From assembly GCA_019747455.1 (NCBI GenBank), contig JAIEQT010000312.1, forward strand, positions 1-11,189: a DNA stretch of 11,189 nt, given 5' to 3'. Below the pieces are notes generated by a model. The model was given only the letters and a program-made list of their open reading frames with translations. It was not told the origin of the DNA and did not search any database. Numbering within the stretch: position 1 is the first letter of the stretch; every line of letters begins with the position of its first letter. This document shows positions 6,649 through 11,046 of the stretch, piece after piece. Source of the DNA: Chitinophagaceae bacterium (lineage in GTDB: Bacteria; Bacteroidota; Bacteroidia; Chitinophagales; Chitinophagaceae). Made by a program: the position numbers and the translations under genes.

Positions 6649-7415
6649 AAGCGAAGGTGGCGAACAGTTTGACCTTTATTAATCAATTGTTTTAGCGAAT
6701 CGATACCAATTTTCAAGTGCTTCTCTACATATTGCTCCGTAATTTTCTTATCGCTGGCCTCGGTTTTAACACCATCGGGAATCATGGGTTGATCACTAAC
6801 CAATAGTAAAGCACCGGTAGGAATTTTGTTATAGAAACCAACGGTGAATATGGTTGCCGTTTCCATATCAATGGCATAAGCCCTTACTTTGGTAAGATAC
6901 TCTTTGAAAGCATCATCATGTTCCCAAACCCGTCGGTTTGTGGTGTACACGGTACCGGTCCAGTAATCCACTTTATAATCTCTAATGGTGGTTGAAATGG
7001 CTTTTTGCAGCGCGAAAGCCGGCATCGCAGGTACTTCGGGCGGGAAATAATCATTCGATGTACCCTCTCCTCTTATGGCAGCAATAGGCAGTATAAGATC
7101 ACCTAATTTATTTCTTCTTTTTAGTCCTCCGCATTTACCCAAAAAAAGCACTGCTTCTGGCTCGATAGCAGTTAATAAATCCATGATGGTTGCAGCACCC
7201 GGACTACCCATTCCAAAATTAATAATTGTAATACCATTAGCGGTGGCACATTGCATGGGCCTATCGGCACCCACAACTTTTACTTTATGCCATTTGGCAA
7301 ACATGGTTACATAGTTACCGAAGTTGGTTAACAGAATAAATTTACCAAAATTCTCTAGTTTCTCGCCGGTGTAACGAGGTAACCAATTGTTTACTATTTC
7401 TGCTTTTGTTTTCAT
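6645..7415 (-). CDS. amn: AMP nucleosidase (short Bacteroidetes form)
   Basis: The protein belongs to the purine/uridine phosphorylase superfamily and most likely hydrolyses AMP to adenine and ribose 5-phosphate. It has 256 residues from the ATG at 7415. The open frame runs 11 codons further upstream, but that stretch is made of the heptad repeats at 7422-7449 and is not family-like. Seen: NFGNY (31-35), the phosphate/ribose-binding FGMGSPGA (67-74), GKCGGL (93-98), the nucleoside-binding AIDMETATIF (181-190) and SDQP with the catalytic aspartate D208. It lacks the extra N-terminal domain of the E. coli enzyme (about 480 residues), as I recall for Bacteroidetes homologues. A related nucleoside phosphorylase activity cannot be excluded. 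The upstream gene on the same strand is the four-helix-bundle gene; no promoter motif is visible in the 50-bp gap between them. Confidence 0.87.
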   Translation of the reverse strand: MKTKAEIVNNWLPRYTGEKLENFGKFILLTNFGNYVTMFAKWHKVKVVGADRPMQCATANGITIINFGMGSPGAATIMDLLTAIEPEAVLFLGKCGGLKRRNKLGDLILPIAAIRGEGTSNDYFPPEVPAMPAFALQKAISTTIRDYKVDYWTGTVYTTNRRVWEHDDAFKEYLTKVRAYAIDMETATIFTVGFYNKIPTGALLLVSDQPMIPDGVKTEASDKKITEQYVEKHLKIGIDSLKQLINKGQTVRHLRF

Positions 7416-7421
7416 GTGCTT

Positions 7422-7449
7422 GACTATAGACCATGGACAATAGACCATG
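7422..7449 (-). repeat. Left array of four 7-bp degenerate tandem repeats
   Basis: Read on the minus strand, the four consecutive heptads are CATGGTC, TATTGTC, CATGGTC and TATAGTC, fitting YAYNGTC. The array ends exactly 6 nt before the amn start codon and begins 16 nt after the stop codon of the four-helix-bundle gene. It is the inverted partner of the array at 7907-7934. Confidence 0.85.
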
Positions 7450-7450
7450 T

Positions 7451-7464
7451 CTAAATAAAGTGAA
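7451..7464 (-). repeat. Left imperfect inner inverted repeat
   Basis: The minus strand reads TTCACTTTATTTAG. It matches 11 of 14 positions with TTCACGGTATTAAG at 7891-7904 on the plus strand, and each copy sits one or two nt from its heptad array. The alignment was found by eye, so chance is not excluded. Confidence 0.45.
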
Positions 7465-7465
7465 G

Positions 7466-7828
7466 TTACGATTTATTTTTTTGCAAAGCGTTTTTGAATG
7501 CACTTAGCATTTTTGAAAGTATTTCGAATTCTTGATATAACTCATTAAATAGTTGTTCATATATATAACCTCTTTCCTTTGCCTTCAACAAGCAGGCAAC
7601 TACTTCCAAAAGAGAACGATTAGCATAAATAATAAATCTGATTTGTTCGTTGTTAGTTTGCCCTGCCGATCCTTCAGCTATATTCAATCCGACACTGTCA
7701 ATTGCCCTAGTAAGCTGATTTGACAAGTTGAACCTTTCCTTATCCGGAAATTGCATAGCTAGATTATTTATTTTTTCACCTAAATAAAAAGATTTCTCCC
7801 AGACATTAAGTTTTTCAAATTTAAACAT
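7466..7828 (-). CDS. Four-helix-bundle protein (S23 ribosomal / 23S rRNA intervening-sequence-protein family)
   Basis: The 120-residue protein belongs to the family first described as proteins encoded in intervening sequences of 23S rRNA genes and related to the Avd accessory protein of diversity-generating retroelements. Its cellular role as a stand-alone gene is not established. Family marks are the opening FEKLNVWEKSF (3-13), FPDKERFNLSNQLTRA (27-42), the hallmark SVGLNIAEGSAG (45-56), the ANRSLLEV segment (69-76), and LLKAKERGYI (81-90), ending in a Lys-rich tail. The whole chain is predicted helical; the family forms a pentameric bundle. The ATG at 7828 is chosen over the TTG at 7834 because the family starts at this point. 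It is not inside an rRNA gene here. Heptad repeat arrays flank it on both sides. Confidence 0.92.
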   Translation of the reverse strand: MFKFEKLNVWEKSFYLGEKINNLAMQFPDKERFNLSNQLTRAIDSVGLNIAEGSAGQTNNEQIRFIIYANRSLLEVVACLLKAKERGYIYEQLFNELYQEFEILSKMLSAFKNALQKNKS

Positions 7829-7890
7829 AGTCAATGATACAAATTGAAATAGTATTCCTTTGCGTATATTTACCTTACTATTAATATTTT

Positions 7891-7904
7891 TTCACGGTAT
7901 TAAG
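7891..7904 (+). repeat. Right imperfect inner inverted repeat
   Basis: TTCACGGTATTAAG is the inverted partner of the sequence at 7451-7464 (11 of 14 identical). It lies 2 nt before the right heptad array and about 60 bp upstream of the four-helix-bundle start. Confidence 0.45.
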
Positions 7905-7906
7905 CC

Positions 7907-7934
7907 TACGGTCTATCGGCTATTGTCTATTGTC
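7907..7934 (+). repeat. Right array of four 7-bp degenerate tandem repeats
   Basis: The four consecutive heptads are TACGGTC, TATCGGC, TATTGTC and TATTGTC, the same YAYNGTC type as the left array but on the plus strand. The array ends 6 nt before the ATG at 7941, the same spacing as between the left array and the amn start codon. Confidence 0.85.
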
Positions 7935-7940
7935 TCCCTC

Positions 7941-10937: not shown

Positions 10938-11046
10938 TCTCAAAATTTTCATGCCGTAACATGAAGCGAGTCGCCCCTATCCGCCGTAGGTGTATATGCG
11001 CCAACCTGAATGTGGCTATCTAAACCGTAAAAATCAGATCAGACAC
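10938..11046 (+). promoter_or_regulatory. Long GC-rich 5' leader of queA, possible structured or peptide-coding regulator
   Basis: The leader is long for this genome. Its segment 10961-11020 is 55% GC by count (33 of 60), while the surrounding intergenic DNA is visibly A/T-rich. Small stems are possible (GGTG/CGCC around a 6-nt loop near 10997-11010, and CCTA/TAGG near 10977-10990). It contains a minimal ORF ATG-CCG-TAA (10951-10959) and a 20-codon ORF (10961-11023). I see no match to preQ1 riboswitch classes. The function is unknown. Confidence 0.4.
10961..11023 (+). CDS. Possible 20-residue leader peptide upstream of queA
   Basis: An ATG at 10961 opens a frame of 20 codons ending in TAA at 11021-11023, 23 nt before queA. 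The peptide is MKRVAPIRRR followed by CICANLNVAI: three adjacent arginine codons (CGC, CGT, AGG), then two cysteine codons, then two asparagine codons (AAC, AAT), which are read by queuosine-modified tRNA. There is no Shine-Dalgarno sequence, but neither do the real genes here have one. I do not recognise the peptide. An ORF this short can arise by chance; the GC-rich leader could instead be a structured RNA. Confidence 0.3.
   Translation: MKRVAPIRRRCICANLNVAI

Follow-up and report, generated by a model that had tools for sequence, protein, structure and literature searches.

The window is the whole stretch of 11,189 nucleotides that was analysed. Between the start codon of amn (minus strand) and the start codon of an HSDR_N gene (plus strand), the interval 7416..7940 holds an inserted cassette, which consists of a single gene (7466..7828, minus strand) and one short tandem array (arm) on each side of it. 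No transposase gene is present between the arms. The gene codes for a 120 aa four-helix protein of the S23 family (23S rRNA-intervening-sequence type), read from the ATG at 7828 (122 codons if an upstream TTG is used). Its sole Pfam match is PF05635 (23S_rRNA_IVP; E 3.2e-30, 104.9 bits versus a cut-off of 33.8), and the NIAEG core of the family is conserved. This copy is located between amn and HSDR_N and thus outside any 23S rRNA gene. The AlphaFold2 model has four helices (pLDDT 95.8), and the solved folds closest to it are 2gsc (XCC0516, TM 0.91), 2rld (BT_0352, TM 0.81) and 4dwl (Avd, TM 0.80). Both 2gsc and 2rld contain five chains, and the paper on 2gsc refers in its title to five four-helix bundles. 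Elsewhere in the window, a queA RNA (RF03093, 58.7 bits) at 10948-11019 is the sole Rfam match above the gathering score.

The arm 3' of the S23 gene (7422..7449, plus strand) is composed of four heptads of the type GACNATN, which read GACTATA GACCATG GACAATA GACCATG. TRF reports it with period 14 (score 49); the lag-7 score is 7.5 and the lag-14 score is 11.5. The arm 5' of the gene (7907..7934, minus strand) also has four heptads, which run in the opposite orientation to those of the other arm; in direct reading, it is TACGGTC TATCGGC TATTGTC TATTGTC (TRF: 7911-7935, period 7; lag-7 score 11.0). The first-pass annotation of this DNA had described inverted arrays of four heptads around a 120-codon S23 gene. 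This is confirmed, except that unit 2 of the right array (TATCGGC) lacks the GTC. Runs in which at least 3 of 4 heptads carry GAC or GTC start at positions 7415, 7422, 7429 and 7911 of the window, all within the two arrays. Across 200 Markov-1 simulated windows, the mean was 0.065 such positions, and 8 of the 200 had any. Two properties seen in many relatives (see below) are faint in this copy. The ungapped inverted-repeat score of its arms is 10, below the threshold of 14 that was applied elsewhere, because the arms have a common unit but a different order of unit variants. A polarity of G-rich and C-rich arms is barely visible, as the heptads of each arm have as many G as C.

Arms at S23 genes and their period

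S23 genes were found in 147 of 198 sampled genomes from the phylum Bacteroidota. The set analysed for arms comprises 209 genes, each oriented by strand and taken with 250-bp flanks. It was compiled from the window and its own genome, from the best-scoring matches of two genome searches (L036-L095, at most one per genome), from 60 regions of up to 20 kb each (L096-L155, hand-picked for long contigs and spread, with arrays known beforehand at L123 and L124 only) and from 80 named loci (L156-L235, the best 80 of 575 confirmed matches). Of initially 211 genes, L123 and L124 were removed as duplicates of L063 and L064. Six loci (L055, L122, L165, L174, L195 and L214) contribute no gene to the set; at least L055 and L122 have in-frame stop codons. 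Inverted repeats were scored for 204 genes, leaving out five with flanks shorter than 150 bp (including L209, L215 and L235). ORFs were called with simple scripts rather than a gene finder, and the period call is kept per locus, so that second genes on a locus take the call of the first.

The lag autocorrelation of the S23 flanks peaks at 7, with smaller peaks at 8 and 9. Of the 209 genes, 120 have an array score of at least 11 on either side (84 with period 7, 27 with period 8, 7 with period 9 and 2 with another period). At a score of at least 9, there are 159 of 209, versus 11 of 209 with shuffled flanks (the shuffle preserves single-base composition only). The 60 regions also permit a comparison with other genes. 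Arrays on either side are found at 28 of 61 S23 genes, at 86 of 682 other ORFs at a distance of over 1 kb and at 7 of 89 ORFs of 100-150 aa. For arrays on both sides, the corresponding values are 13 of 61, 9 of 682 and 1 of 89; with periods of 7-9 nt on both sides, the odds ratio of S23 genes versus other ORFs is 20 (p 6e-10). When only intergenic stretches are considered, a lag-7 score of at least 11 is reached by 32 of the 110 that adjoin an S23 gene and by 48 of the 551 others.

The two flanks are also related to each other. An inverted-repeat score of at least 14 was obtained for 100 of 204 S23 genes versus 2 of 204 mismatched flank pairs. The co-occurrence of gene and heptads, which the first-pass annotation had proposed to check, thus holds far beyond the window. 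In a scan of 1,476 ORFs (including ORFs near S23 genes), 19 that are away from S23 have such a repeat; matches near S23 are not among these 19. Of the 204 genes, 166 score at least 14 for the repeat or at least 9 for the array, and 38 score lower on both.

Arms are not restricted to Bacteroidota. Among 24 S23 genes from other phyla, 16 have an inverted repeat and 18 an array; this count leaves out Elusimicrobiota L174, SAR324 L195, Lentisphaerota L214, Acidobacteriota L209 and L215 and Cyanobacteriota L235. The arm-bearing genes include representatives of Bacillota, Pseudomonadota, Chloroflexota, Thermodesulfobacteriota, Nitrospirota, Myxococcota and Acidobacteriota. Many of these loci are MAG contigs, and one (L224) is from a named isolate, Thiohalocapsa halophila. 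The protein from L216 (labelled Limnohabitans) is identical in 99 of 118 residues to that from L182 (a Flavobacterium MAG); L216 and some other non-Bacteroidota MAG contigs may be mis-binned.

Arrays have a median size of 4.6 units; the median distance is 40 nt from the upstream array to the start codon of the S23 gene and 8 nt from its stop codon to the downstream array. For 68 genes, arrays are present on both sides, with a single period on both sides in 63. For 55 of these 63, inverted orientation gives a better match of the units than direct orientation, and in 47 of 63 the match is above the 95th percentile of random pairing. Arms with an inverted repeat often retain the same order of unit variants. 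Furthermore, the arms are polar: G exceeds C in 79 of 85 upstream arrays, and C exceeds G in 76 of 86 downstream arrays. That S23 genes were inserted into pre-existing arrays was considered and rejected, since the arms would then be direct rather than inverted. Two cassettes, L205 and L228, have 9-nt units, and the array of L205 is very long.

The repeat period goes with the lineage of the S23 protein, and this holds across phyla. A tree was computed from the 118 proteins with a period call; it has few columns, and many of its forks are unresolved. On this tree, the period label requires 14 changes, while shuffled labels require 31.1 on average and were as low in none of 200 shuffles. The main period-8 clade has 23 rows (20 with period 8, 2 with period 9 and 1 with period 7). 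Its hosts are Bacteroidota and MAG contigs labelled as Lambdaproteobacteria, Nitrospirae and Desulfobacteraceae (L168-L170). Cassettes with 7-nt and with 8-nt units are found together in genome G058 (L040, L111) and in genome G097 (L068, L140). Unit sequence also follows protein identity for period 8 (Mantel rho 0.56, with 0 of 500 permutations as high). For period 7, this relation is weak (rho 0.06, 47 of 500 permutations as high), and common units are found only in S23 pairs that are more than 60% identical. YAYNGTC, named by the first-pass annotation as the repeat type, does not hold as a signature of the S23 family: lineages differ in unit and period, and the units at further S23 genes in the genome of the window are different.

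It might be argued that these are ordinary, slippage-prone intergenic heptads that accumulated beside S23 genes by chance. An excess of heptads has been described for many bacterial genomes, and slippage has been proposed (PMC4692102). Arrays are indeed common away from S23 (the 86 of 682 other ORFs above), and their length varies between orthologous cassettes (see below). Slippage, however, generates direct arrays; it accounts neither for inverted arms, in which the order of variants is often retained, nor for the polarity, nor for a period that is tied to the protein tree. This explanation is already disfavoured, and we regard it as very improbable.

Empty sites and dispersed arrays

A genus-level comparison covered 29 HSDR_N loci, from 29 of the 36 genomes of the same genus with a match. 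The gene order amn / HSDR_N / gdh is kept in 28 of the 29; the remaining locus begins at a contig end. A tblastn search for S23 in the 29 loci gave no match. As had been suggested for checking, empty sites were looked for at amn/HSDR_N: 28 congeners have neither the gene nor heptads in the gap between the two genes, which is just a short intergenic stretch there. In L240, one weak period-7 match (score 8) is located inside the coding end of amn and not in the gap.

Two further sites come from another genus (g120). L151, from genome G129, covers 20 kb, contains four S23 genes and was compared to its seven relatives. Three of the eight genomes (G129, G113 and G140) carry cassette ii, and five lack it. 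The site of cassette iii is cleanly empty in G140 and G248, which have a 6-9-base gap instead; the remaining six genomes have S23 matches at this position. The arms of both cassettes are octads as judged by eye; the lag score gave no period call on the G129 copies. Cassette iv was not counted as a clean empty site, since its flanks are too diverged. Orthologous cassettes differ in array length. At three sites, the presence and absence of gene and arms thus coincide, and the cassette in the window is an insertion.

Near-identical second S23 copies within a genome were searched for one S23 lineage in 12 genomes, and none were found; the other S23 copies in these genomes are at most 75% identical to the query. 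There is thus no sign of recent gene-bearing transposition in this set. On contig 1, the single contig of genome G264, two S23 matches of equal score and equal identity are found near 1814 and 3724498, near both contig ends. These may be a duplicate or an assembly overlap.

Arrays without a gene are frequent. In the genome from which the window is taken, the GAC unit of the window (with at most 1 mismatch) has 121 matches versus 0 for the reversed control. Among 100 of the 121 matches listed, there are 37 GAC sites, and 36 of these are not at an S23 gene; both strands are represented within 150 bp at 4 of the 37. The first-pass annotation had regarded heptads that are scattered genome-wide and show no association with the gene family as evidence against its proposal. 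The scatter is evident; the lack of association is not. A similar picture is obtained for TCTCGTA, which is found in the arms of L003 (a further S23 gene of this genome), with 35 matches versus 2 for the control and 17 sites by count, of which 16 are not at S23. The unit of one S23 gene from a foreign genome has 0 matches, and its reversed control has 8. Thus, heptad families that are unrelated to a known S23 unit also exist here. In L009 (contig C366 of the same genome), a heptad array appears, as judged by eye, to be inside a coding frame, so that arrays may not be strictly intergenic.

Some gene-less arrays are paired like the arms of a cassette. Contig C520 of the same genome contains two gene-less inverted pairs (L383:1499-1592 and L384:1500-1605, about 840 bp apart), which are near-identical over about 85 bp and have unrelated flanks. 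As single-stranded DNA, both give good folds (z -4.4 and -5.4). In the 60 regions, 132 of 187 arrays do not adjoin an S23 gene (for array density, coding and intergenic DNA are mixed outside the S23 flanks). There are 27 gene-less pairs of neighbouring arrays with the same period, of which 15 match better inverted and 8 better direct. The 15 better-inverted pairs have the G-rich/C-rich polarity of S23 cassettes in 11 cases and the opposite polarity in 1.

At the level of the bacterial family, GACNATN arrays were found in 21 of 59 genomes with S23 versus 0 of 20 without (p 0.0009, a statistic that ignores kinship). The reversed pattern, which represents another heptad family, was found in 13 of 79 genomes, including one that lacks S23. 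Genome G055 has 142 matches to this reversed control pattern and thus contains another large heptad family. A strict rule of one array type for one S23 protein was rejected, since G071 and G003 have many GACNATN arrays and no close relative of the S23 protein from the window.

Such dispersal would be expected if S23 were an array-binding regulator or chromosome organiser. The arrays would then be operators, mostly located elsewhere, and the gene would move by ordinary horizontal transfer and recombination. A period that goes with the protein lineage fits with this, and paired opposite-strand hepta- and octanucleotide arrays in Geobacter metallireducens are called putative global regulator sites in the accessible part of PMC2700814. 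Operators, however, need not flank the gene in inverted orientation with fixed polarity, nor need they come and go with the gene at empty sites, and the near-identity of the gene-less pair, in spite of unrelated flanks, suggests a unit that moves. We consider such a regulator unlikely.

A role at the RNA level has a similarly small chance of being the full explanation. The element would then behave like the intervening sequences (IVS) of 23S rRNA: the arms would pair in the transcript, RNase III would cut the stem, S23 would be encoded in the loop, and insertion into an operon would be tolerated. The IVS of Coxiella has the same plan, as far as the text available describes it (PMC4990558). The 3' neighbour is codirectional for 60 of 65 S23 genes versus 584 of 819 other ORFs, which is in line with tolerated operon insertion. 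A stem, however, needs neither conservation of the period nor dispersed solo arrays. Arm differences on the sense strand also lack a bias towards G-U-compatible changes, with 49 compatible versus 82 incompatible transitions and, when counted per locus, 21 versus 41 (p 0.015, the other way). Selection for a sense-RNA stem via G-U-compatible changes was thus rejected. In fetched S23 loci, five short rRNA motifs gave 0 matches, which is a weak test for location inside 23S rRNA.

GxxExxY genes with a similar layout

The inverted-repeat scan retrieved two small ORFs (L127:4496-4894 and L109:12506-12934) which we take to be GxxExxY proteins by their appearance. The corresponding Pfam domain, PF13366, is found in 98 of the 198 genomes from the phylum. 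In a first pass, in which some gene ends were poorly called, 10 of 30 GxxExxY loci had an inverted repeat with a score of at least 14. With more loci, and with the genes re-called by a profile built from their own hits, it is 27 of 53 versus 1 of 53 mismatched pairs. The arms of these genes (PDDEXK_3; L326-L375, L127 and L109) have units of the CACAGAG or GCAAAG type, spaced by about 8-10 nt. They are also polar: CACAGAG is found upstream in 21 cases and downstream in 4, and CTCTGTG upstream in 3 and downstream in 18. Their lag scores are weak, with at most 7 of 53 reaching 9 at any lag and side. GxxExxY genes thus have an S23-like layout, consisting of a single gene and inverted arms with another unit.

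It is tempting to speculate that S23 and GxxExxY cassettes represent one undescribed class of mobile elements; we put this forward tentatively, with the chances somewhat against it. A single small protein that is no known transposase would read a tandem array of short units at both ends, and its lineage would determine the spacing (7-9 nt in S23 cassettes and about 8-10 nt in those of the nuclease-fold GxxExxY proteins). If true, much of the unexplained short-period tandem-repeat DNA in bacteria would be the footprint of such elements.

Proposed cassette family and comparison with known systems

The first-pass annotation had proposed a transposase-free one-gene element with repeat ends. The empty sites, the inverted arms throughout the family and the gene-less derivatives sustain this, and the proposal needs amending. 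That the unit is inserted is observed directly. We infer that S23 binds the arrays and that the mover comes from outside. The feature in the window probably belongs to a widespread family of minimal mobile cassettes, each about 0.45-0.55 kb long, with one S23-type gene between inverted arms. An arm would typically comprise about four to five units of 7, 8 or 9 nt in tandem. An S23 pentamer would recognise the arrays of its own lineage, perhaps with one unit per subunit, both at the two cassette ends and at dispersed copies. S23 would thereby be the specificity factor, and movement would be carried out by an enzyme supplied in trans. By analogy, the IVS precedent and the orientation bias relative to the 3' neighbour would favour an RNA step, but the arm differences lack the G-U-compatible bias (see above).

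We know of no agreed explanation for S23 genes or for over-represented heptameric repeats. The data suggest that S23 cassettes are an undescribed minimal mobile cassette with no known enzyme for their own movement. They join two puzzles, S23 genes and the heptameric repeats that are described as over-represented in many bacteria in the available part of PMC4692102. The S23 gene of rRNA intervening sequences gains a possible chromosomal counterpart, empty sites become available for studies of mobility, and a second gene family (GxxExxY) with an S23-like layout is indicated. In the open-access literature (preprints and most subscription papers fall outside, and long result lists were covered in part), no link of S23 or GxxExxY genes to short-period arrays was found. 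According to the sections available, 23S_rRNA_IVP genes have been reported in cas loci (PMC3936711), and 23S_rRNA_IVP is named in a figure legend of a CRISPR survey (PMC10910872).

Several known systems resemble the cassette in part. Tandem short units and inverted pairs have been described for heptads from Xanthomonas (GGGAATC) and Nostoc and for the hepta- and octanucleotide pairs from Geobacter. For the Xanthomonas heptads, the available text gives 70 convergent inverted pairs in Xcc and 75 in Xac (PMC4692102), and the Geobacter array pairs are on opposite strands at variable distance in the portion seen of PMC2700814. Unlike S23 cassettes, these repeats are described as SSR/G4 or as regulator sites, and the accessible parts of these papers tie no gene family to them. 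Homology of PF05635 to Avd, a protein of diversity-generating retroelements, is suggested in the available part of PMC10053308, and the fold of the window protein is similar to that of Avd at 11% sequence identity. No reverse transcriptase and no pair of template and variable repeats, which characterise these retroelements, was noticed in the ORF list of the window.

The 23S rRNA IVS is similar in its protein family, its size (about 0.43 kb) and, less clearly for the window copy with its repeat score of 10, its inverted ends. For Coxiella, the text available gives an IVS of 428 nt whose terminal stem has 28 bp and whose loop contains S23, and calls it selfish (PMC4990558). The copy in the window and the cassettes at empty sites are, however, located between ordinary genes. 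Their ends, perhaps unlike IVS stems, are tandem arrays of 7-9-nt units with a lineage-related period, and their gene-less array relatives are dispersed in the genome from which the window is taken.

In REP/RAYT systems, a Y1 HUH transposase is encoded between the repeats. REP/REPIN elements with RAYT transposases, the subject of PMC3116915, share with S23 cassettes a low-copy gene with inverted repeats that are also dispersed without the gene, including paired gene-less copies. The gene in the window differs in that it codes for a four-helix S23-type protein and not for an HUH transposase, and the ends of the cassette are tandem arrays. By this analogy, the logic of the cassette resembles that of REP/RAYT, with S23 being no known transposase. 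In its plan, the S23 cassette is thus both IVS-like and REP-like, lacks a defining feature of each and possibly belongs to a larger class.
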